A DNA stretch of 64,000 nt from a bacterium. Lineage in GTDB: Bacteria; Bacteroidota; Ignavibacteria; Kapaibacteriales; UBA7675. A program made the position numbers and the translations under genes. The stretch lies in contig JAUIKM010000011.1 in NCBI GenBank assembly GCA_030430495.1, positions 1 to 64,000 on the forward strand. Reading direction: 5' to 3'. Below the pieces are notes generated by a model, which worked only from the letters and a program-made list of their open reading frames with translations, was not told the origin of the DNA and did no database searches. Within the stretch, counting starts at the first letter, position 1. Each line of letters begins with the position of its first letter. Below are positions 3,039-50,104 of the stretch, piece after piece.

Positions 3039-6000
3039 CTACTGCCGTCGCACGGGATTTTTCTGCAGTAGAATCTGGCGTTGGTCCTCTTTCACCACGG
3101 AGTTGTAAAACTCCTTGAACTGATGGTACTCGGCCGGTGAGACTTCCAGCTTTTTGTTGACCAGACGCCGCGTTCCGCGCAAAACGCCGTTCTCAAAACT
3201 GAAACTCAGCGTGTAATCCGCAACCGGTGAACTTAAACGCACGTCCTCGCCCAGCTCAACCGGCGCATAGCCGTCCGGCAGGTGAATCTCCATCACCTCG
3301 CTGACGGTGTCCGCCCAGGGCCAGTACAGGTAGGTGTACTTGCGTTCGTCGTAGGACAGCGCCTCGTTGGCGCTGAGTTTGCTCGACCAGGGAACGTTGA
3401 GGAATTTGAAGCTGCCGGTTTCAGTCACATAGGACGGCACTTCAAATTCACAGGTATATTCCATTTCCGGTTCGATCTCGTTCAAATCGCCGAGCTCCAG
3501 TTTGTTGAGCGTCACACTCGGAAAACTGGAAGCCAGCATTTCCTTGAATTCGCGCTTGCGGTCCTGCTCGCCCTTGTCGCGGAATGCGTAACGCATGATC
3601 GCGCTGAAGTTGCCCGACTGCGCCGATTTCAGGCTGACGGCAATACTGTTGTCATCGCGCACCTTCATGTTGGTCTTTGTCGTCAGGCTGTTGGGCACAA
3701 AACCTTCATCCGGCATCAGGAACGGTTCTGTTTCTCCCTCGCGGATTAACAAAGAGAAGCCGTCGATGTCGAGTTCAGGTATCGAGCCGAAAGAATAATT
3801 GTTGGCGGTCAGGTCCATGTACATCAGCTCGGCGTCCAGTTCGACGGCCGCGATGCAGTGGTTCCAGGCTATCGAAGGCAGTACCGCCTGATTGCGGCCT
3901 TCATCGCGCGTGTTGATCAGCACGTAGTGCGCGTCCACGTCCAGCTCGTCCAGCATCGAAATCGCCAGGGTCGAGACGTCCTTGCAGTCGCCGATGCCCG
4001 TTTCCAGCACGTCGCGCGCCTTCTGCGGCACGAGGCCGGACTGACGGAACGAGACGGAGCTGTAGCGGATATTTTCCGTGATAAAGTCGTACACCAGCGC
4101 CGCGCGCTCGCGCGCCGTCAGCTCGTCTCTGTTGAGGCCGCGGTCCTGCAGCAGTTGTTTAACCTTCTCGCGCACCTCATAACTTTCGCGCGTTTTGGTC
4201 ATTGCCAGGTCCTGGTACCACTCCACAAAAAAGGCCCAGTCTTCGATGGTCGAAAGGTGCAGTACCTTGCCGACTTCCGTCAGCCCCGGCATGTCGTATT
4301 CGTAGTGCAGGCCGGGTTCGTCGTGCGTGCGCCAGGCGTACAGCACCCCTTCGTCCGTCCTCTTCACCTCGGGTTTGATGTCGCCGTTCTGCACATTGTA
4401 CCTGAATGTCAGATCCTCGGGGACAAGCAAAAAGTAGCGGCTCGACGCCACCGGATAACCGCCATTGAAGTAGTGCGAGTCCCAGAAGTGTCCGGCCAGA
4501 CGACCATATTGAAACGTCTGGACCCGATAGCGAATGTAAACGGTCTCGCCCGGTTCAAGTTGTTTAAACACCACGTAATTGCCGCTGACGTCCGCCACCA
4601 CTTCCGAGCCGTTTAACTTGCGCACAAAGGCCCGCTCGATGTTAATCCGCTCCGTATTGCCGTAGTACGGCACATAGTATTCTTTTACTTCGTCCACGCC
4701 GCTCTGATTAAACACTTTCACCGCAATTTCACCGATGTATTCGGATGCGCCGCGGTCGTACACCACGCGCCGGCGGTCGTCCATCAGGTACATGCCGTTG
4801 TCTTCGGGGAAGTCGGCGGCGTTCGGCGCGGCGGCAATCACACTGTCCAGATCGACCTGATCAAACAGGTCAAAGATGTTGCCTTTGCCCTCCATCTCGC
4901 GAATAGTGTGGCGCAGCGTGTAGTTGCGCGGCGAGAAGTCCAGCGCCTTGTAGAAGTATTCCAGTGCGGTTTTGTCGTTGTTGCGCGCGCGGTGTATTTC
5001 CCCGACGCGCTCCCAGTATGCCGCGCTGTTGGGACACATATCAGTCGCCTGTTTCATGGACGCAAGTGCGTCGTCATAGCGCTCCTGATCGATGTATTCG
5101 CCCGCCATGCGGAAGTGGATGCCCGCCTGCGCCGGATCGGCCTCCAGCAGCGAAAGCGTCAGCTCTTCCCACTTGTCCACCTCGCCTTTGCGCAGGTAGA
5201 GGCCCGCCAGTCGATTCGTAACCGCCAGTGAATAGTGTTCATCCAGGTAGTCCTCGTATAACTCGATTGCCGGATCCACGCCGCCAGATTTTTCGGTCAG
5301 CACGGCGGCCATCGACGTCATCCAGGAGATGTCCTCGGGGAATTTTTCGTAGGCTTCGCGCACCAACTGGCGCGCCTTGTCCGCCTCGCGCTTGCGGACG
5401 TGATAAGTATAGCGGAAGGTGTAGGGCAACTGCGATCCTTCAGGCACGGCCAGTTCAACCTTGTCGATCAGCTCGCGCACTTTGTCGTATTCCTGCTGTT
5501 CGTAGTGGCGCTCTATCTGGTAGACCAGCGAACTCAACAGGTTGGGCGCCTGTTTTTCCAGGCTCTCGACGATGCTCAGCGCGCGGTCGTACTTGCCGTT
5601 TTCCGTGTATGCATTGATCAGCTGCTCCTGAACGTACGTGTTGCGCGGCGCCAGTTCTTCGGCTGCGCGCAGCGCAAGCTCAACTTTTATCTTGCGGTCG
5701 CTGCGGCTGTGAACGCAGGCCAGCAGAAGATGATTTTCGATGTGGTCCGGGTTGGCCGCTATTTTGTCCTCAAAAAACTTCACCGCCGCATCGGCGATTT
5801 CAATCTTGGGCGCGCCCGGTTTGGGCGTGTACGTCTGTTTGTCCGTCGAGACGCGCAGTCCCGGCAGCGGACGCCCTTTCGCGTCGGTAATGCGCAGCAG
5901 AAAATTGGATCGGTCGATCTCGTCGTGCCCCACCTTCACCAGGATGCGGTTCCAGCCTTTCTGCAGTTCCGTGCGCACGATGTAGGTGTCCACATCGTTG

Positions 6001-6824
6001 TTGCGCTCTTCGAATTCCTGCGTCAGCAACTCGTCGTTGAGGAAGAGTTTAAGCGCGCCCGACGTGCCGATGCGCACGTCCGCCGCCTGCTTGCTGTCCG
6101 AATGCACAAAGGTATTGGCGTAGAAAAAGGCATTGTCTTCCGAGAAATAGCGCTGAAAATCAAACCACAGATCGGGCCGCCCGACCGACGGTTTGAACCA
6201 GAACGCCGGCACCGCAAATTTGCCGACATAACGCGCATCCGGATCAAACTCCAGCTCCGGCGCAAAAACCTTGTCAAAACCCGACTGCGATATGTTCTCA
6301 AACGGGCCGATGGTCATCCAGTCGTTGATAACGCCCAGCTTGCCGTACACCTCTTTCGCCTCCTGCAACTTGCCTTCCTGCTCCAGGAAAAAGCCGTAAC
6401 TGCTGGTGGTAATGGCACTTAACAACCCGTTGCTTTGCGGATTCTGTGCGTCCATTTCAGCCAGTCCGGGCAGCAATTGCAGGTGTTCTTCGCTCTCGGC
6501 CAGCATCGCATAGGCCGGAATTCCCCACAGCGCATAGGCGTAGGGCGCGTGTTCCGGCGACTGAAGCAGGAACTGCGAGTACAACTCAAAAGCTTCGTCG
6601 TTTCTGTTTAACTGACTGTACAGAAAAGTCAGGCCGCTGACTGCGCGGGCATCCGCCGGATCCTGTTCCAGCGCGGCTTTGAACTCAGCCTCGGCCTTTG
6701 CAAAATCCAGATCGTCCCAGGCCTGCCAGGCCGAGTTTATTTGTGCGTCCGCCGCATTGAGCGCGGGAACGGACGCCGTCAACATCAGCGCCCCTACCAG
6801 AACTTTATTCAACCATCGCCGCAT
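3039..6824 (-). CDS. Exported TPR / DUF3857 / transglutaminase-like protein
   Basis: A 1261-residue exported protein. I start it at ATG 6824 because a signal peptide (MRRWLNKVLVGALMLTASVP, cleavage near NAADA) follows immediately and GGGAG lies about 11 bases upstream; an in-frame start at 6935 would bury the signal. Residues about 27-110 and 350-660 are TPR units, about 700-880 form a DUF3857 domain, and about 900-1010 a transglutaminase-like core. The cysteine-protease-like triad is visible: Cys in GDCKD (about 945), His in WNHC (about 988) and Asp in MDLT (about 1001). DUF3857-transglutaminase proteins are common in Bacteroidota envelopes, but their substrate is generally unknown. It precedes the ROK kinase and cupin genes on one strand. 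Confidence 0.85.
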   Translation of the reverse strand: MRRWLNKVLVGALMLTASVPALNAADAQINSAWQAWDDLDFAKAEAEFKAALEQDPADARAVSGLTFLYSQLNRNDEAFELYSQFLLQSPEHAPYAYALWGIPAYAMLAESEEHLQLLPGLAEMDAQNPQSNGLLSAITTSSYGFFLEQEGKLQEAKEVYGKLGVINDWMTIGPFENISQSGFDKVFAPELEFDPDARYVGKFAVPAFWFKPSVGRPDLWFDFQRYFSEDNAFFYANTFVHSDSKQAADVRIGTSGALKLFLNDELLTQEFEERNNDVDTYIVRTELQKGWNRILVKVGHDEIDRSNFLLRITDAKGRPLPGLRVSTDKQTYTPKPGAPKIEIADAAVKFFEDKIAANPDHIENHLLLACVHSRSDRKIKVELALRAAEELAPRNTYVQEQLINAYTENGKYDRALSIVESLEKQAPNLLSSLVYQIERHYEQQEYDKVRELIDKVELAVPEGSQLPYTFRYTYHVRKREADKARQLVREAYEKFPEDISWMTSMAAVLTEKSGGVDPAIELYEDYLDEHYSLAVTNRLAGLYLRKGEVDKWEELTLSLLEADPAQAGIHFRMAGEYIDQERYDDALASMKQATDMCPNSAAYWERVGEIHRARNNDKTALEYFYKALDFSPRNYTLRHTIREMEGKGNIFDLFDQVDLDSVIAAAPNAADFPEDNGMYLMDDRRRVVYDRGASEYIGEIAVKVFNQSGVDEVKEYYVPYYGNTERINIERAFVRKLNGSEVVADVSGNYVVFKQLEPGETVYIRYRVQTFQYGRLAGHFWDSHYFNGGYPVASSRYFLLVPEDLTFRYNVQNGDIKPEVKRTDEGVLYAWRTHDEPGLHYEYDMPGLTEVGKVLHLSTIEDWAFFVEWYQDLAMTKTRESYEVREKVKQLLQDRGLNRDELTARERAALVYDFITENIRYSSVSFRQSGLVPQKARDVLETGIGDCKDVSTLAISMLDELDVDAHYVLINTRDEGRNQAVLPSIAWNHCIAAVELDAELMYMDLTANNYSFGSIPELDIDGFSLLIREGETEPFLMPDEGFVPNSLTTKTNMKVRDDNSIAVSLKSAQSGNFSAIMRYAFRDKGEQDRKREFKEMLASSFPSVTLNKLELGDLNEIEPEMEYTCEFEVPSYVTETGSFKFLNVPWSSKLSANEALSYDERKYTYLYWPWADTVSEVMEIHLPDGYAPVELGEDVRLSSPVADYTLSFSFENGVLRGTRRLVNKKLEVSPAEYHQFKEFYNSVVKEDQRQILLQKNPVRRQ

Positions 6825-6912
6825 AAAACACCGTTCTCCCGAAGTTCCGTTGTCTGCGTAAAAACTTTGTACATGTCTGTTGTTCGCCCCCGGAGAAGGG
6901 ACCTGGCCTGAC

Positions 6913-7284
6913 TCAATCCTCTTCTTGTTTGCCACCGAGTTTGCGGCGAAGAGCCGCCTCGTACTGCGGCGTGTGCGTCAGTTTGCCGCCCGTCAGCATT
7001 TCATAACGAATCATCGCTTTGTTTAACCTGTGCTGCAGGTCGCGCCGTTCGTCGTCATCCGTCACGGCCTTCAGCAGGTCGCGCAACTGGAGCGTTTCTG
7101 CGTGGATTTGAGCTTCTTCCGGCAGAACGCCGGAGTTTTTGAGAACGCGCAACGCCGGGCGCATTTCGGGGCTGACGCCGTCGTATTGTGAAAGATCGAG
7201 CGGTTTGCCCTTGAGCGGCAGGTCGTTGAACTCGCCGCGTTCTATTGCTGCGCGGATTTTGGCGTCGGCCAGACTGGCATGCAT
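6913..7284 (-). CDS. DUF1992 domain protein
   Basis: A protein of about 123 aa matching the DUF1992 domain, also found C-terminal to J domains in DnaJC28-like proteins. Diagnostic features are the N-terminal ADAKIRAAIERGEFNDLPLKGKPL and the following helical region with VLKNSGVLPEEAQ. I chose ATG 7284 because a GGAGGA Shine-Dalgarno (7292-7297 on the plus strand) sits 7 bases upstream; a longer frame to 7341 lacks this support. The protein ends with an acidic GGKQEED tail. It lies 88 bases upstream of the TPR-transglutaminase gene on the same strand. Molecular function is unknown. Confidence 0.85.
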   Translation of the reverse strand: MHASLADAKIRAAIERGEFNDLPLKGKPLDLSQYDGVSPEMRPALRVLKNSGVLPEEAQIHAETLQLRDLLKAVTDDDERRDLQHRLNKAMIRYEMLTGGKLTHTPQYEAALRRKLGGKQEED

Positions 7285-7556: not shown

Positions 7557-7892
7557 ATGAAGTTTTCGCAGCAACGCCTGGATCAGGCTATGATTGTCGG
7601 GCTGTCCGGTCGCATGGACGTCACAAACGCCGCGCAGGCGGAAGTCGAACTGCTCGGCCATGTCGAAGAAGGTAAAAAGCTGATGGTCCTCGACTGCGCC
7701 GAGCTGGATTACATCTCCAGCGCCGGCCTGCGCGTCCTGCTGCTGACGGCCAAAAAGATGCAGGCAAATCGCGGCGAAGTGCGCCTGAGCAGCCTCCAGG
7801 CCCCGATTCGCGAAGTCTTTGATATCGCCGGTTTTTCCCAGGTCTTTGCCATCTATCCCGATACGGACAGCGCGCTGCGGGCCACGGCCTGA
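7557..7892 (+). CDS. Anti-sigma factor antagonist (STAS domain)
   Basis: A 111-residue single STAS domain of the SpoIIAA/RsbV type. The phosphorylatable serine lies in LDYISSAGLRVLL (about residues 50-63), the segment that is phosphorylated by the partner kinase. In known systems the unphosphorylated form binds an RsbW-like kinase/anti-sigma factor and frees a sigma factor or another output protein. The matching kinase gene follows 132 bases downstream on the same strand. No PP2C phosphatase or obvious SigB-like sigma gene is present in the window, so the output is unknown. Confidence 0.9.
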   Translation: MKFSQQRLDQAMIVGLSGRMDVTNAAQAEVELLGHVEEGKKLMVLDCAELDYISSAGLRVLLLTAKKMQANRGEVRLSSLQAPIREVFDIAGFSQVFAIYPDTDSALRATA

Positions 7893-8024
7893 TCGCCTCC
7901 GCATCTCCTCCGCACCTGTTGTGCAGAAATCACCACATCGCGCAACAAACTGTGGAATAATTCCAACATTTTCCGGTATGGCCGGTACTGGGCATGGTCA
8001 ACAGTTTTTGCGATACGAGTGCTG

Positions 8025-8465
8025 ATGAGCAGCGTAGTGACACTTTCCCTCAACAATTCTCTCCAGGAGCTTCCCCGCCTCGGCCAGGCGGTGCGCGATC
8101 TGTGCAAACGCCGCCGGGTCCCGAATGCCATTCTGTACTCCGTCAACCTCGCCGTCGATGAACTCTTCACCAATGTCGTGACGCATGGCTACGAGGACGA
8201 CGAGAGCCACGAGATCAGCATCCGCATCGCCGTGGACGACAGCAGCATCGAAATTGAAATGATCGACGACGGCGTGGCGTTTAACCCCTGGCAGGACGCT
8301 CCCGTGCCGCGACTGGATACGCCGCTGGAAACGCGCGCCATCGGCGGCCTTGGCTTGCACCTGGTCAAATCACTCATGAACTCGCTCGACTACCAGCGCA
8401 GCGACGGCCGCAATTGCATTCGCATGCGCAAGGACTACTCACCCGCCGCCGAGTCCGCCGCCTGA
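8025..8465 (+). CDS. RsbW-like anti-sigma serine kinase (HATPase)
   Basis: A GHKL ATPase of about 146 aa. The N-box is VDELFTNVVTHGY, the G1 box IDDGVAFNPW and the G2 box GGLGLHLVKSLMNSLDY, as in RsbW/SpoIIAB serine kinases. It should phosphorylate the upstream STAS protein and sequester a partner in partner-switching control. ATG 8025 is used; GTG 8019 is in frame two codons earlier. The 3' end overlaps the convergent PrsW-type gene by 31 bases (8435-8465), so the two transcripts run into each other. No separate promoter was identified for this gene. Confidence 0.88.
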   Translation: MSSVVTLSLNNSLQELPRLGQAVRDLCKRRRVPNAILYSVNLAVDELFTNVVTHGYEDDESHEISIRIAVDDSSIEIEMIDDGVAFNPWQDAPVPRLDTPLETRAIGGLGLHLVKSLMNSLDYQRSDGRNCIRMRKDYSPAAESAA

Positions 8466-9478
8466 ACTCCCGTCGTTTTTTCCTTCTGCAATTGGCGCAG
8501 CTGCCACAGCTCTTTCCTGCTCATGCGCAGCACCGGTTGCAGCGCCAGCATGGCCGTTGGTCCAATCTGCGATTCCAGATACGACAACTCTTTGAAACGC
8601 GCGTCCAGCGTCGGGTCCGGCGCGGGCGTAAAACCGGCCTGTTTCATCAACAACAGCCCTTTGACTTTCAGCGCCAATTCCAGGTGCAGGCGCATCAGCC
8701 AGTACATGTCAAACACCACTTCCGAGGGAAAATATATCTTGAGCGACTGGAGGTAGGCCCCGGCCGAGGTCAGTGAGAATTCGCCGCGCGTGATCATCGC
8801 CAGCAGGCGCGCCTCCGAATCGAAGTTGAGCGCCAGCCAGCGCTCCAGACCAGCCTCGCTGCGGCGGTACACGACCATGACGATGGGAGGAAACAACAAC
8901 AGAATCGCCACTGAACTCTGCAAGGGCGAGAGAATAAACTGATTAAACGCTGCGTGGATGAGCAGCGCTCCGACGAGCCCGGGCAAAACAAAAATCAGCC
9001 GGAAACGATCAGCCCGCCGTGTCAGCGCCACCGCCGTCACCGCCACCGCCAGCACGACCCCGCCGTGCATGATCGCCGTGCCAAAACCGCGCACAAGCCA
9101 GACCAGCAGCGACGACTCGGACGGAAAAAGCATCAGGTAGTAGATGTTCTCAACGAAGGCAAAACCGGCCCCCAGTGCAAATCCGGCGATGGCAGCGTCC
9201 ACCATGAATCCAAAGCGACGGCGCGCCAGAAAAAAGACCAGCGGGAGCGATTTGACGAATTCTTCAACGAGGGGTGCGGCGTAGCGTGAGTAGTCGCGCA
9301 ATGTGATGCCCAGCGCGTCCTGCAGCGTGGTGTTCAGAAAGTAACAGCAGATGGCCGTGAGCGCGCCCAGAACCAGGCAGCCCGCAACGAAGCTGATGCG
9401 AAGCAGTTTGTAGGAGTCGAGCCAGTACAGCGCCGCCAGAAACAGCACAACCGGCAGCAGGCTCAGAACGATATGCAT
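8435..9478 (-). CDS. PrsW-type intramembrane metalloprotease
   Basis: A polytopic membrane protein of 347 aa carrying the PrsW glutamate/histidine motifs. EEFVK is near residue 69 (the EExxK motif), FAFVENIYY near 105-113 (FxxxEN), and a histidine in MHGG near residue 136. PrsW enzymes cleave anti-sigma factors within or near the membrane; Bacillus PrsW is the site-1 protease for RsiW. Start ATG 9478 puts the first membrane helix (IVLSLLPVVLFLAALYWL) at the N-terminus; a longer frame to 9550 adds a Gln/Asn/Arg-rich leader without support. It follows the anti-sigma factor and ECF sigma genes on the same strand, which suggests that the anti-sigma factor is the substrate. Confidence 0.85.
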   Translation of the reverse strand: MHIVLSLLPVVLFLAALYWLDSYKLLRISFVAGCLVLGALTAICCYFLNTTLQDALGITLRDYSRYAAPLVEEFVKSLPLVFFLARRRFGFMVDAAIAGFALGAGFAFVENIYYLMLFPSESSLLVWLVRGFGTAIMHGGVVLAVAVTAVALTRRADRFRLIFVLPGLVGALLIHAAFNQFILSPLQSSVAILLLFPPIVMVVYRRSEAGLERWLALNFDSEARLLAMITRGEFSLTSAGAYLQSLKIYFPSEVVFDMYWLMRLHLELALKVKGLLLMKQAGFTPAPDPTLDARFKELSYLESQIGPTAMLALQPVLRMSRKELWQLRQLQKEKTTGVQAADSAAGE

Positions 9479-9581
9479 GCGGTGGGCCCCATTCTGGTTG
9501 GAATGATTGCAGGTTTCGCGGACGGCTCGCGCCGTCGACCGCTGCAACAATGTACCGCCGAAACAGAGCGCCGCGCTCGCC

Positions 9582-10316
9582 TCAGTGGTCGCTGAGCCTC
9601 AGGTCGATGGACCGTCCGTCCACCGTACCGCGAATCTGAAAACTGGCGATGTCTTCAGAATGCTGTTTGAACTTCAATATCTGCTTTTTACCCTGCTCCA
9701 GGCGCAGAGCCAGCTTGCCCGCGTCCGCGCCGGGCAACGCCTTGACGTCGTCGCGCGGTTCAACGATATTTTTGTCGTAGGCCAGCTGAATTTGTCCCGA
9801 ATCGGCATCGAGCAGTTCCAGCTCAAGAACCAGCACGTCGCCGCCCTGAAGCAGTTTGCAGGAAATCAGGTTCTCGATCGCGCCGGCGTTGACCGTTTCC
9901 AGCCGCTCGATCATCGTTCCCGGCATGCTATCGGTGTCCGAGGGCGTACCGCCGGGTTTGAGCAGAAAAACGACCAGCACCACCGCGGCCGCGCCGACCA
10001 GGGCGGGGCGCCAGGGCGCACTGAAAAAGGACTTCAGCAGGCGCGACAAGCCGTTTTCCGCCGCGGCGTTTTTTACCGGGTTGCGGCGCTGAACCACGTC
10101 GCCCGGCAGCTTGCGCATAACGGATTTGTGGAAGTCCGCGGGCGGCTCCAGATCTTCAAACGCGCCGAGGCGTTTGTTCATGGCCTGTAATTCGCCGTGC
10201 AGTTTGCGCGCTTCCGGGTTGCGCCGCAGTTCTTCCCGCAGCGTACGCGTCTCGGCTTCATCGAGCATGCCGTCGATGTCGCGGTTAATCAGATCGAGTA
10301 ACAGTTCTTCATTCAT
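9582..10316 (-). CDS. Membrane anti-sigma factor
   Basis: A 244-residue protein with an acidic helical N-terminal domain (about 1-80), one transmembrane helix at about 105-122 (PALVGAAAVVLVVFLL) and an exported C-terminal domain of about 120 residues. Start ATG 10316 overlaps the ECF sigma gene by 8 bases, the standard arrangement for a cognate anti-sigma factor. It lacks the HxxxCxxC zinc motif of many anti-sigma factors, so the sigma-binding domain belongs to a non-zinc class. A PrsW-type protease is encoded next, consistent with release of the sigma factor by regulated proteolysis (inference). Confidence 0.75.
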   Translation of the reverse strand: MNEELLLDLINRDIDGMLDEAETRTLREELRRNPEARKLHGELQAMNKRLGAFEDLEPPADFHKSVMRKLPGDVVQRRNPVKNAAAENGLSRLLKSFFSAPWRPALVGAAAVVLVVFLLKPGGTPSDTDSMPGTMIERLETVNAGAIENLISCKLLQGGDVLVLELELLDADSGQIQLAYDKNIVEPRDDVKALPGADAGKLALRLEQGKKQILKFKQHSEDIASFQIRGTVDGRSIDLRLSDH

Positions 10317-10857
10317 GGTCGACGATCCCGTGTTCGATGAGGATATCCTTCAGAAGTCGTCGTGCCGTGAACAAACGCGATTTAACGGTTTTTTCCGGAA
10401 TGAGTAGTACTTCGGCCATCTCTTTGTAGGATAGTTCACGAAAATGACGAAGCACGATCACGGTGCGGTAGTCCGGCGGCAGGTCCTGCAGGGCAGTCTG
10501 TATCTGCTCGTTGCGCTCCCCGATCTCGGTCAGTTGTTCCGGTCCGCGCGCATTCGACACCATCCGTTCGTCCAGCTCATCTTCCGGTTTGCGTTTGTTG
10601 ACGAAGTTGAGCGCCTCGTTGACTGCAATCCGGTAGATCCACGAAAAGAACTTGTACTGTTCGTTGAACGTGTCCAGCTTTTCGTAGGCTTTGACAAATG
10701 CGGACTGTGCCACGTCGCTGGCATCTTCATAATCGCGAACAATGCGATATGCGACGTTAAACACTGCGCGTTGATGCTGCTTCACCAGGCCGGCGAAGGC
10801 ATTGGCGTCCCCATTGAGGCATCGCCGCACCAGCACCAGATCATCGTGCTGCTCCAT
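10309..10857 (-). CDS. ECF (RpoE-like) RNA polymerase sigma factor
   Basis: A 182-residue ECF sigma factor. Region 2 spans about residues 20-90, with DYEDASDVAQSAFVKAYEKL and FFSWIYRIAVNEALNFVNKRK. Region 4 spans about 120-175, with LQDLPPDYRTVIVLRHFRELSYKEMAEVL and a helix-turn-helix at PEKTVKSRLFTARRLLK. It heads an operon with the anti-sigma factor (8-base overlap) and probably the PrsW-type protease. No strong Shine-Dalgarno precedes ATG 10857. Upstream, 10893-10909 holds a small inverted repeat (TGTCA, 7 bases, TGACA) that might be a control site. Confidence 0.93.
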   Translation of the reverse strand: MEQHDDLVLVRRCLNGDANAFAGLVKQHQRAVFNVAYRIVRDYEDASDVAQSAFVKAYEKLDTFNEQYKFFSWIYRIAVNEALNFVNKRKPEDELDERMVSNARGPEQLTEIGERNEQIQTALQDLPPDYRTVIVLRHFRELSYKEMAEVLLIPEKTVKSRLFTARRLLKDILIEHGIVDHE

Positions 10858-11015
10858 AGTACATATCGATCTGTAAAACGTTGGTCTGAAACTGTCAAAT
10901 TTTCTGACACATCTTCATTTGCCTCGCAATGACTCCGGAACGGCCCCGAAACAGCCCTTAAACGGCCCCGGAAAGCCGCTTTTGTTCGTCCGCCGCGCCG
11001 CCGTTGCACGGCTTT
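10858..11015 (-). promoter_or_regulatory. ECF operon upstream region with inverted repeat
   Basis: A 158-base gap between pgeF and the ECF sigma gene. It contains the dyad TGTCA-AATTTTC-TGACA at 10893-10909, about 36 bases upstream of the sigma start, in an otherwise GC-rich gap. The position suits an operator or part of an autoregulated promoter. No ECF consensus is recognisable to me, so this is tentative. Confidence 0.25.
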
Positions 11016-11777
11016 TCAGGCGCGTCGCAAGATTACAGCCATGGCACGTCCGGCCTGTTTTCCATCGCGGCGGTGCGAGTGATAACGCCGGTCGCCGATT
11101 GTACAGGCGGTCGACATTTCAATGTGCGCGGCGGTCAGGCCGCTTTCAATCAACTGCTGCACGATGCGCGCGCGAATGTCCAGGAACAGGCGGCCCCGCT
11201 CGTCCCTCCGCATCGTCCCGGCCGGAAACTGCCGCGCGACTTCCGGCCCGACTTCGTAGTTGTCCACCGAAGCGCAGGCCGAGACGTAAGCAAGCATATT
11301 AGCCGGTTCACAGCCGAAAGCGGAGTTCATCAGCGAGACCCCGCGCAGTGCAATTCCGTCGCGCGTACCGCGCCAGCCGGAATGTAAACCGCCAATGACG
11401 TTTTGCACCGGATCGCAGAGCAGGATCGCGGCACAGTCGGCAATATTGACCGCCAGAGCCACGCCGGCTTCGGAGCAGATCAAACCGTCGGAATCGCGCG
11501 GTGCGGCGCCCGGCCCCACAATCTGCACCTCGTCGCCGTGCACCTGATTCTGGCGGACATAGGCTTCCGGTGCAAAACCAAGTTGTGCGGCCAGCGCGGC
11601 GCGATGCCGTTCACCGATTCCCTCCGGCAGGCCTTCCCGCGTGCTCGCCTGGAAACCATGGGGCGCGTCAAACTGCAGGTTGGCGCGCGTCACTGCGGCG
11701 ACGATGTCGTCCGGAAAAATCTGCGGACGGTCCAGTTCGAGTTGTCCGTCCGTCCGCCCTTCAGCCGCGGCGTTCAT
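11016..11777 (-). CDS. pgeF: PgeF/YfiH family (laccase-domain) protein
   Basis: A 253-residue member of the YfiH/PgeF family, described as a peptidoglycan-editing factor and as purine nucleoside phosphorylase/adenosine deaminase (LACC1-like). The metal-site residues are visible: His in RQNQVHGDEV, Cys in NIADCAAILL and His in GGLHSGWRGT. The C-terminal CTIGDRRYHSHRRDG motif is also typical. Its start overlaps the stop of the exported protein gene at 11774 by four bases, so the two genes are translationally coupled. Confidence 0.9.
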   Translation of the reverse strand: MNAAAEGRTDGQLELDRPQIFPDDIVAAVTRANLQFDAPHGFQASTREGLPEGIGERHRAALAAQLGFAPEAYVRQNQVHGDEVQIVGPGAAPRDSDGLICSEAGVALAVNIADCAAILLCDPVQNVIGGLHSGWRGTRDGIALRGVSLMNSAFGCEPANMLAYVSACASVDNYEVGPEVARQFPAGTMRRDERGRLFLDIRARIVQQLIESGLTAAHIEMSTACTIGDRRYHSHRRDGKQAGRAMAVILRRA

Positions 11778-48437: not shown

Positions 48438-48619
48438 ACAAAATTTGCGGAAGGCGCACTTCCAGATGGCTTAAACCTGTGGTGCGTCGAGAAACTTTTT
48501 GCACGGCGAGGTGTATTTTCCTGCAAACGCGGCACAGCAGCCGCGCCTTCACACTTTCAGATTGAATCGGCATTCCGCTTGCGGCTGAGTGAATGCCCGG
48601 AGTCACACAGGCTACCTAC

Positions 48620-50104
48620 ATGCAAACCCGACAACAAACAAAAAAATCATGTCAGGAAAAGCGCCCCAAGTTGCGCATCCTGACGTCCTCCCTGCTGCTT
48701 GCCGCAATTCTGGTGGTGTCGTCCTGCGACGATGTCGACTCGCCCGTCGGCGGCAGCGATCTGCTGGTATCGCCGTCCAACCTCGACTTTGGTCCGGTGA
48801 AAATTGCGGAGAGCCGCACCCTGACGGTCCGCGTCAGCAACAACGGCGGTGAAAATATCACGATTGCGGCGCAATTGCGCGGAACGGATGCGCAGTCTTT
48901 CGGCATCGTTTCACAACCGAGCGGCGTGCTTGCGCCGGGCAATTCGGCCGACGTTCAAATCAAGTTCAGCCCGACCAGTGAGCGCGCCTATTCGGCTTCG
49001 CTGCGCGTGGGAATCGAAAGCACGGTAGATATCGGCCTGAGCGGCAGCGGCGTCACAACGGAGACGCCGGACGGCACGACGCTGGCCTCGGCGCGCGTCG
49101 CCAAGGGACCGACAATCGACGGAAGCGGCGGCGATGCTGTCTGGCAGTCGGCCGAAGCACTGACATTAACACTGCGCCAGGTGGAGTCCAGCCGGCCGAG
49201 CGGATCACATTCGATGACGCTCAAATCGGTTAACGACGGGCAGAATGTTTACTTCCTGGTGGAAGTCTCCGATCCGCAGAGCGACCTGCTGCCGGCAAGC
49301 TGGGCCTTGAACGGCAACGACGCCTCACAGGAATCGAACTGGGCGCGGCGTACGACCTTCGGTCAGGACGGCTTCAGTTTTATGTTCCCCGTCAGCGGCA
49401 ACGTGCGCGGCGACGCAGCATCCGAGACATTCGAAACGGTCGGCTGCAATGCGGCCTGCCACACGACGGAAGCGCTGGAAAACTACGAAGGCGGCATGTA
49501 TCCGACGCAGGGCACGGTCGACATCTGGTATTGGAAAGCGGCCACGACCAATCCGCAGGGTTTTGCCGATGACTACGTAGCCGCGGGCAGCGACGGCGGA
49601 GCGATGCGCAATGAGCGCCGCGCGGACGACGGACGCAGTTTTGCCCAGGAGAATTTCAGCTCGGCCGGTCTGGGATTTCCTGTACGCCTTGCAGGCGGTG
49701 GCAACGGTGGTTTAAACACGAGCAACTTTATCTGGAACGACAGCAGCGTGCCGTTTAACTTCAACAGTAATCCTGCCACCGGCGCGGCATGGAAGAGCGG
49801 CGATATTGTGCCCGGCTGGCTGCTGCGTACGGATGCTTCGTCAAGCGTCAGCCGCATGGACGTGCACGCCAAAGGCGTGTATAGCGCGGGCCAAAACCGC
49901 TGGGTGATCGAATTCAGCCGAAAATTGAACACCGGGCATTCGGACGACGTCAACCTCGGCGGTGCGGCTTCAGTGCCTTTCAGCGTAGCATATTTCAATA
50001 ATAGCCCGAAGTACGCTAACTTTGAATACAGCAACCTGGGAGCGGCCCCTCGGCCGTCGCACTTTGGAACGGACGAACGCACTCTGTGGTTAACGCTCGA
50101 ATAA
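48620..50104 (+). CDS. Mono-haem lipoprotein, ethylbenzene-dehydrogenase-like
   Basis: A 494-residue exported lipoprotein. A signal helix (LRILTSSLLLAAILVVSSC) ends in a lipobox VSSC near residue 35. Residues about 45-140 form an ASPM/SPD-2/Hydin-like beta domain with VRVSNNGGENITIAAQL. The following region (about 150-494) resembles the EB_dh haem-binding fold (EVSDPQSDLLPASW, WVIEFSRKLNTG...). One c-type haem motif, CNAACH, is at about 275-280. ATG 48620 is used; ATG 48593 lies nine codons earlier in frame. The role is presumably electron transfer or haem sensing at the envelope. Confidence 0.72.
   Translation: MQTRQQTKKSCQEKRPKLRILTSSLLLAAILVVSSCDDVDSPVGGSDLLVSPSNLDFGPVKIAESRTLTVRVSNNGGENITIAAQLRGTDAQSFGIVSQPSGVLAPGNSADVQIKFSPTSERAYSASLRVGIESTVDIGLSGSGVTTETPDGTTLASARVAKGPTIDGSGGDAVWQSAEALTLTLRQVESSRPSGSHSMTLKSVNDGQNVYFLVEVSDPQSDLLPASWALNGNDASQESNWARRTTFGQDGFSFMFPVSGNVRGDAASETFETVGCNAACHTTEALENYEGGMYPTQGTVDIWYWKAATTNPQGFADDYVAAGSDGGAMRNERRADDGRSFAQENFSSAGLGFPVRLAGGGNGGLNTSNFIWNDSSVPFNFNSNPATGAAWKSGDIVPGWLLRTDASSSVSRMDVHAKGVYSAGQNRWVIEFSRKLNTGHSDDVNLGGAASVPFSVAYFNNSPKYANFEYSNLGAAPRPSHFGTDERTLWLTLE

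Follow-up and report, generated by a model that had tools for sequence, protein, structure and literature searches.

A co-encoded PrsW-family protease, membrane anti-sigma factor and ECF sigma factor: a probable proteolytic switch in a Gram-negative bacterium

When the gene for a PrsW-type protease lies just behind genes for an extracytoplasmic function (ECF) sigma factor and a membrane anti-sigma factor, is the protease part of the control of that sigma factor? The question is raised by a stretch of 64,000 nucleotides (positions 1 to 64,000 of contig JAUIKM010000011.1, assembly GCA_030430495.1; hereafter the window) from a bacterium of the Kapaibacteriales (UBA7675). Bacillus offers the best-known case of control by SigW, RsiW and PrsW; in B. 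subtilis prsW is unlinked to sigW-rsiW and, to our knowledge, there is as yet no agreement on what triggers PrsW. A sequence-only reading of the window had proposed a self-contained switch in which the protease cleaves the anti-sigma factor: it suggested a phylogeny of the protease and a survey of gene neighbourhoods as checks, and named independent transcription of the protease gene as evidence that would speak against the proposal. The three genes, as called from open reading frames (ORFs), lie on the minus strand in the order ECF sigma, anti-sigma, PrsW-family protease:

10309..10857, minus: ECF sigma factor gene (182 amino acids; Pfam Sigma70_r2 and r4_2)
9582..10316, minus: single-pass class I anti-sigma gene (244 amino acids; zinc motif absent; residues 133-134 a juxtamembrane GT)
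9479..9581, minus: anti-sigma/protease intergenic gap (search of this strand gave neither promoter-like nor terminator-like sites)
8435..9478, minus: long PrsW-family protease gene (347 amino acids; membrane core and helical C-terminal domain, about residues 219-346)

The sigma and anti-sigma genes overlap by 8 bases (10309-10316), as the sequence-only reading had noted, and the protease gene follows 3' on the same strand; the gap between the end of the anti-sigma gene and the protease ATG (9478) is 103 bases (9479-9581) and not the 104 given earlier. A TTG at 9550, in the same open frame, is an alternative protease start. Neither a promoter nor a terminator was seen before prsW on the minus strand of this gap; sigma-70 type promoters and terminators between 7300 and 11100 were no more numerous than in shuffled sequence. 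Sigma factor, anti-sigma factor and protease are in one operon, and the proposed switch is well supported by linkage.

The linkage comes from relatives of the protease. Species genomes were scanned with the window protease and with that of a second genome of the same family but of another genus (G002): of 201 relatives, 80 were kept, and these match over nearly the whole length (41-54 % identity). These long PrsWs are found in Kapaibacterium, Ignavibacteriales, Balneolales, KSB1, Gemmatimonadota, gamma- and betaproteobacteria, Krumholzibacteria, Eisenbacteria, Zixibacteriota, Latescibacterota, Acidobacteriota, Armatimonadota and others, nearly all as metagenome assemblies. Viral contigs were also tried as a source of relatives; none of the 31 pattern matches there proved to be related to the protease. 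Every reading frame of the 80 loci was searched with hidden Markov models (HMMs) of the partner proteins, for which the first loci had supplied the sequences. The usual order, in many diderm phyla, is RsbW - STAS - sigma - anti-sigma - X - Y - PrsW, with the protease last; X and Y are two proteins for which neither Pfam nor NCBIfam holds a family of their own. Linkage was counted over the 40 loci with at least 6.5 kb upstream of prsW: sigma and anti-sigma are present in 35, RsbW and STAS in 34 and Y in 36. All five tested partners stand before PrsW in the order RsbW-STAS-sigma-anti-sigma-Y in 30 loci (the exceptions are L043, L045, L048, L061, L068, L075, L094, L097, L104 and L116). Among the remaining 40 loci, with shorter upstream sequence, Y precedes prsW in 38. 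The neighbourhood survey thus bears out the three genes as a conserved unit; the word self-contained is too narrow, because a convergent STAS-RsbW pair belongs to the conserved cluster and most relatives have X and Y.

Ordinary PrsW loci of the window's own order (L022-L029) gave sigma, anti-sigma or Y matches in none of eight cases. An even sample of 395 genomes of the phylum contains 20 genomes with a long PrsW (at least 301.9 bits) and 39 others with only a clearly different match (at most 86.9 bits). In 12 of the 20, Y lies within 1.5 kb; in four (window included) sigma and anti-sigma stand directly before prsW, and in four there is no partner within 1.5 kb. The window anti-sigma factor, used as an independent bait on the 395 genomes, found matches in 12 besides its own; ten of these have an adjoining family-like sigma factor (at least 196 bits), the other two scoring 111 and 130 bits.

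In G002 the whole block keeps the order of the window, with one membrane protein added: TPR-transglutaminase, DNAJC28-like, STAS, RsbW, PrsW, the extra membrane protein, anti-sigma, sigma, PgeF and, further on, an OmpA-like gene. Between the two genomes PrsW is 54-55 % identical, sigma 58 % and anti-sigma 29 % (BLAST) or 35 % (MAFFT). Since gene order is kept on both flanks, this pair of genomes is by itself no proof of a functional tie; taken together, the conserved order in another genus of the family and the wider survey of loci put the trio above chance. The window is a compact variant of the cluster: it has no X, Y is missing from its assembly, and STAS and RsbW are convergent to prsW. 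Y is absent both from this assembly (95.6 % complete) and from that of G002 (91 %), and was matched in two control genomes. Sigma, anti-sigma and PrsW are also adjacent in L116, L220, L222 and L232, and probably in L101, whose contig begins inside the anti-sigma gene: compact forms like that of the window thus exist elsewhere.

A predicted promoter motif precedes most of these sigma genes, that of the window included, and the window holds two copies of it:

10860..10884, minus: predicted sigma-autoregulatory promoter CCAAC-N-TTT-N13-GTA (exact match, two bases before the sigma ATG)
7963..7987, plus: further exact match to the motif (upstream of RsbW, between it and STAS)

These are the only matches in the window, even when one mismatch is allowed; in 300 shuffled versions of it there were on average 0.01 exact matches and never two. 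Among relatives, the dyad CAAC-N16-TGTA occurs in 22 of 36 sigma upstream regions (any dyad in one shuffled set: at most 3), and the consensus ACCAACTTTT...TGTA in 31 of 39 (window included), with 8 of 39 lacking a site. In at least 16 of the 31 sites only three bases separate GTA from the start codon, so transcription may begin on that codon or right beside it. A matrix trained on the 31 sigma sites, whose matches at sigma genes are therefore circular, gave 67 matches in the 80 loci, against 3 in one shuffled set; 13 of the 67 lay away from any labelled gene. Outside the training set it found 23 sites, 17 before X and six before genes in which anti-sigma and X are fused; a sigma-type promoter is present in 15 of 26 gaps between anti-sigma and X.

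A strict scan gave 7 matches in the window's own genome (1 in a reversed control), 3 in G002 (control 3) and 14 in 12 other genomes (control 5), of which 11 lie in the cluster and three elsewhere (positions worked out by hand). No wider regulon is therefore claimed. Outside the locus, the own genome has an exact motif about 165 bases before an Omp85-family gene (5.8e-19; L205 2468-3824, contig 6), and others 38 bases before a lipoprotein-like ORF, inside an ORF, near no clear gene and beside a masked stretch. The Omp85-family gene is a possible outer-membrane target in a genome without Y. A weaker copy of the motif (17.5 bits) lies in the window at 48489-48515 on the plus strand, about 80 bases before a lipoprotein-like gene (48593-50104) with an ethylbenzene-dehydrogenase type domain.

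On the plus strand, tail to tail with prsW, two further genes adjoin:

7557..7892, plus: STAS (anti-anti-sigma type) gene (PF01740, 2.7e-19; likely orthologue of the cluster's STAS)
8019..8465 (ATG also at 8025), plus: RsbW-type kinase gene (PF13581, 8.7e-28; likely orthologue of the cluster's RsbW)

At their 3' ends the coding regions of prsW and the kinase gene share 31 bases (8435-8465); in G002 a gap of 17 bases lies between them. For tests of orthology, cluster HMMs were built without the window and L043, the two members of the family. The RsbW model scored 92.6 bits with the window protein and 60.3 with the next of the 24 HATPase_c_2 loci in the genome; the STAS model scored 74.1 and, with the next protein found, 55.2 bits (STAS was sought only in these 24 loci). 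As the closest found in the genome, these two convergent genes are most likely part of the system. The Ser in YISSAGL of the window STAS is presumably the phosphorylated residue. A second STAS and RsbW-type pair, less like that of the cluster, is present in the same genome (L124 1000-1890, contig 73).

The window protease matches PF13367 (PrsW-protease) at 1.7e-22 (80.4 bits, cut-off 23.5) and is the sole such match in the 5.6 Mb assembly. The motifs seen in the sequence-only reading are present: EExxK (E72, E73, K76), FxxxEN (F106, E110, N111) and MHGG (137-140). Across 64 sequences (63 of the 80 loci plus the window), E72, E73, H138, H175 and N179 are invariant or listed as invariant; we take the conserved Glu-Glu and His to be the PrsW active-site residues. 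A structure model (predicted local distance difference test, pLDDT, 88.6) consists of a membrane core and a helical C-terminal domain, the latter kept in the alignment of long-PrsW relatives. Foldseek gave no match to the model at E 0.001. In a second structure comparison the core resembled APH-1B (Z 15.6, root-mean-square deviation 3.4, 183 aligned), which agrees with the relation between PrsW and APH-1 stated in a passage of PMC3482391. The rows of that comparison hardly test the C-terminal domain, and no fold is therefore claimed or denied for it; if it lies on the inner side of the membrane, as presumed, it might receive a signal from the cytoplasm. Long and short proteases separate with full support, across very long branches, in a tree built from 23 long sequences and 10 of the 18 short ones.

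The sigma factor has sigma-70 regions 2 and 4 (Pfam 8.8e-18 and 6e-17) and scores 120.6 bits with the NCBIfam sigma70-ECF superfamily model (cut-off 42.9). Its best NCBIfam equivalog is SigW, below the cut-offs (141.1 bits against 209 and 126.4 against 243.1). The HMM of the cluster's sigma factors gave it 252 bits, and 128 bits to the next of the 30 sigma loci in the genome.

For the window anti-sigma factor Pfam gave no family over its cut-off, and NCBIfam anti-sigma models matched weakly, below cut-off (7.2e-8). A family profile (24 sequences: 23 loci plus the window, fused and truncated proteins excluded) compared with solved structures found RsiW best (5wuq, 2.9e-8), followed by RskA (5e-4); by this family profile the protein falls in class I (an ASDI domain like that of RsiW, RskA and RseA), and the anti-sigma domain is, by sequence comparison, RsiW-like. 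There is no cysteine in the first 90 residues, and Hx3Cx2C, which marks the ZAS subgroup, is found in 0/24 family members: the zinc motif is missing, as the sequence-only reading had it, yet this is ordinary for the family. A passage of PMC7406223 gives about 44 % of class I anti-sigma domains as without the zinc motif. One hydrophobic stretch (about residues 101-119, by eye) is followed by a juxtamembrane GT, whose G is conserved in 24/24 sequences and T in at least 90 %.

A similar GT is found in X, in which a single membrane segment is followed in turn by GT[IV], [KR]YR..Q and repeats, mostly of 9 residues. The juxtamembrane motif is present in 38 of 52 X candidates (the 14 misses are contig-cut, variant or not X), and unfused copies with the motif range from 321 to 1135 amino acids. 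Several loci encode the anti-sigma domain and X as a single fused protein. Near-perfect 9-residue repeats, strongly variable in number, are seen for example in L084 (3468-4895), L059 (3440-4828) and L112 (3584-4891). The extra protein of G002 (232 amino acids), with a membrane segment and a GGT stretch and no YR..Q motif, looks by eye like a remnant X.

Y is 40-58 % identical to the copy in L046, except in L081 (87 %). Its model (pLDDT 90.2) comprises an N-terminal helix, a helical part with HExxH, a beta-propeller and a C-terminal barrel; HExxH (H122, E123, H126) and E176 are invariant in 48 aligned sequences (of 60 near full length). The propeller resembles TolB and other propellers, in a structure comparison that hardly tested the metalloprotease and barrel parts, and Pfam gives weak Omp85_2 or PD40 matches, in 28 and 25 of the 48. 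From these features we infer a secreted, outer-membrane metalloprotease. Widely conserved, unnamed copies lie in L084 (4958-7915), L046 (5004-7961) and L073 (4879-7959).

The gene set, its conservation, the orthology of its parts and the promoter motif are shown by computation. The likely function is an autoregulated switch of the SigW/RsiW/PrsW kind, based on regulated intramembrane proteolysis and present here in compact form. The anti-sigma factor would hold the sigma factor at the inner membrane; on an envelope signal the co-encoded long PrsW would make the first cut in the anti-sigma factor where it leaves the membrane, perhaps close to the conserved GT. A second cut would be made by a site-2 protease of the M50 group (the assembly has five M50-family matches, away from this locus), after which cytoplasmic proteases would free the sigma factor. 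Once free, it would transcribe its own operon, and probably also rsbW, from the CCAAC-N-TTT-N13-GTA promoters, with the STAS-RsbW pair as a second, cytoplasmic input.

Several observations weigh against this switch. In most relatives Y, and not the anti-sigma gene, stands directly before PrsW, which makes another substrate (X) possible. Of the 40 loci, L045 has no partner nearby, L048 and L094 have only Y, L061 is without sigma or anti-sigma, and L075 carries both on the other strand; PrsW was not found in G001, one of three genomes of the family. The NCBIfam equivalog of PrsW proper (NF033739) scored 36.7 bits, its cut-off being 225, so the protease is of the PrsW family and not PrsW itself. 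The motif before RsbW was not found in G002 (best, 3 mismatches), no promoter match in the 80 loci was assigned to rsbW, and among the top dyads upstream of rsbW in relatives none resembled the sigma promoter: the putative RsbW promoter is thus seen in the window genome only. It is conceivable that the main substrate of PrsW is X (or another envelope protein where X is gone), that another signal releases the anti-sigma factor, and that PrsW does not activate the sigma factor but is made under its control. The juxtamembrane motif that X shares with the anti-sigma factor is consistent with this, as are the sigma-type promoters before X, which make X-Y-PrsW look like an output operon. However, the window, L116, L220, L222, L232 and probably L101 keep the anti-sigma gene directly before PrsW with neither X nor Y between, so the surviving link is with the anti-sigma factor; the fusions of anti-sigma and X also count against this alternative, which we hold to be rather unlikely.

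Smaller still is the probability that partner switching is the main control, with RsbW, freed or bound by STAS, setting the state of sigma or anti-sigma in the cytoplasm and PrsW only tuning it. RsbW and STAS are present in 34 of the 40 clusters, and the window pair is the closest found in its genome, with a promoter motif before RsbW; against this, the sigma factor has its own membrane-bound RsiW-type anti-sigma factor, and RsbW and STAS form a separate convergent unit here, whose motif G002 lacks. That the protease is an unrelated neighbour kept by general synteny, as the block syntenic on both sides in G002 could suggest, is very improbable: the linkage holds across many phyla in otherwise different surroundings, from two independent baits, and is missing from the ordinary PrsWs of the same order.

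More tentatively, and with a probability that we put below even, the SigW/RsiW/PrsW-like switch of the window may be a stripped copy of an undescribed trans-envelope pathway in many diderm phyla. An outer-membrane Y (metalloprotease part and propeller) would report via X, a membrane-anchored repeat rod, to the RsiW-type anti-sigma factor, and PrsW would cut X and the anti-sigma factor at their shared juxtamembrane GT; X would be a rival substrate and feedback brake, the partner switch a cytoplasmic check, and the sigma factor would serve almost only its own cluster.

With SigW/RsiW/PrsW (and RasP) of B. subtilis the window system shares an RsiW-type anti-sigma domain, a PrsW-family protease and SigW as the best, below-cut-off equivalog of its sigma factor. 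Unlike that system it is Gram-negative, has the protease gene in the operon, a long PrsW extended by a C-terminal domain, an anti-sigma factor that lacks the zinc motif and adjoining RsbW and STAS genes, with X and Y in most relatives. A HATPase_c_2 kinase encoded together with a STAS protein recalls RsbW/RsbV (STAS) partner-switch modules; these normally act on factors of the sigma B or F type, whereas here the pair is tied to an ECF sigma factor with its own membrane anti-sigma factor. RseA, in the RseA/RseP/sigma E switches, is controlled by regulated intramembrane proteolysis, as proposed here, with a DegS-type serine protease as first protease; here the first protease is PrsW-type, and the anti-sigma profile matches RsiW and RskA, RseA not being listed. 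Lack of a zinc motif in a membrane anti-sigma factor is a further likeness (RseA-type, in a passage of PMC5358783). The -35 element AAC-N-TTT is similar to the SigW consensus TGAAACXTTT as given in part of PMC6713349. A PrsW-family membrane peptidase also serves polymorphic toxin export in the account excerpted from PMC3482391; it is fused to toxin domains there, while here it has a conserved helical domain and regulators as neighbours.

This kind of switch is, then, already known; not found described is its combination, in one Gram-negative gene cluster, with a partner switch, a repeat protein and a protein of outer-membrane type, in a literature search that left aside the 2021 ECF re-classification, where the window sigma factor may already be numbered as a group. 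Because protease, anti-sigma and sigma are genetically tied across many Gram-negative phyla, with a predicted promoter, the substrate, signal and regulon are directly testable, and the full form of the cluster hints that a switch of this kind may have a partner in the outer membrane.

Of the flanking genes, a PgeF-type gene (multicopper polyphenol oxidase family; 11016-11777, minus) lies just upstream of sigma, also in G002. The genes for a short DNAJC28-domain protein (6913-7281) and a large TPR protein (3039-6935), both on the minus strand, are likewise syntenic in G002.

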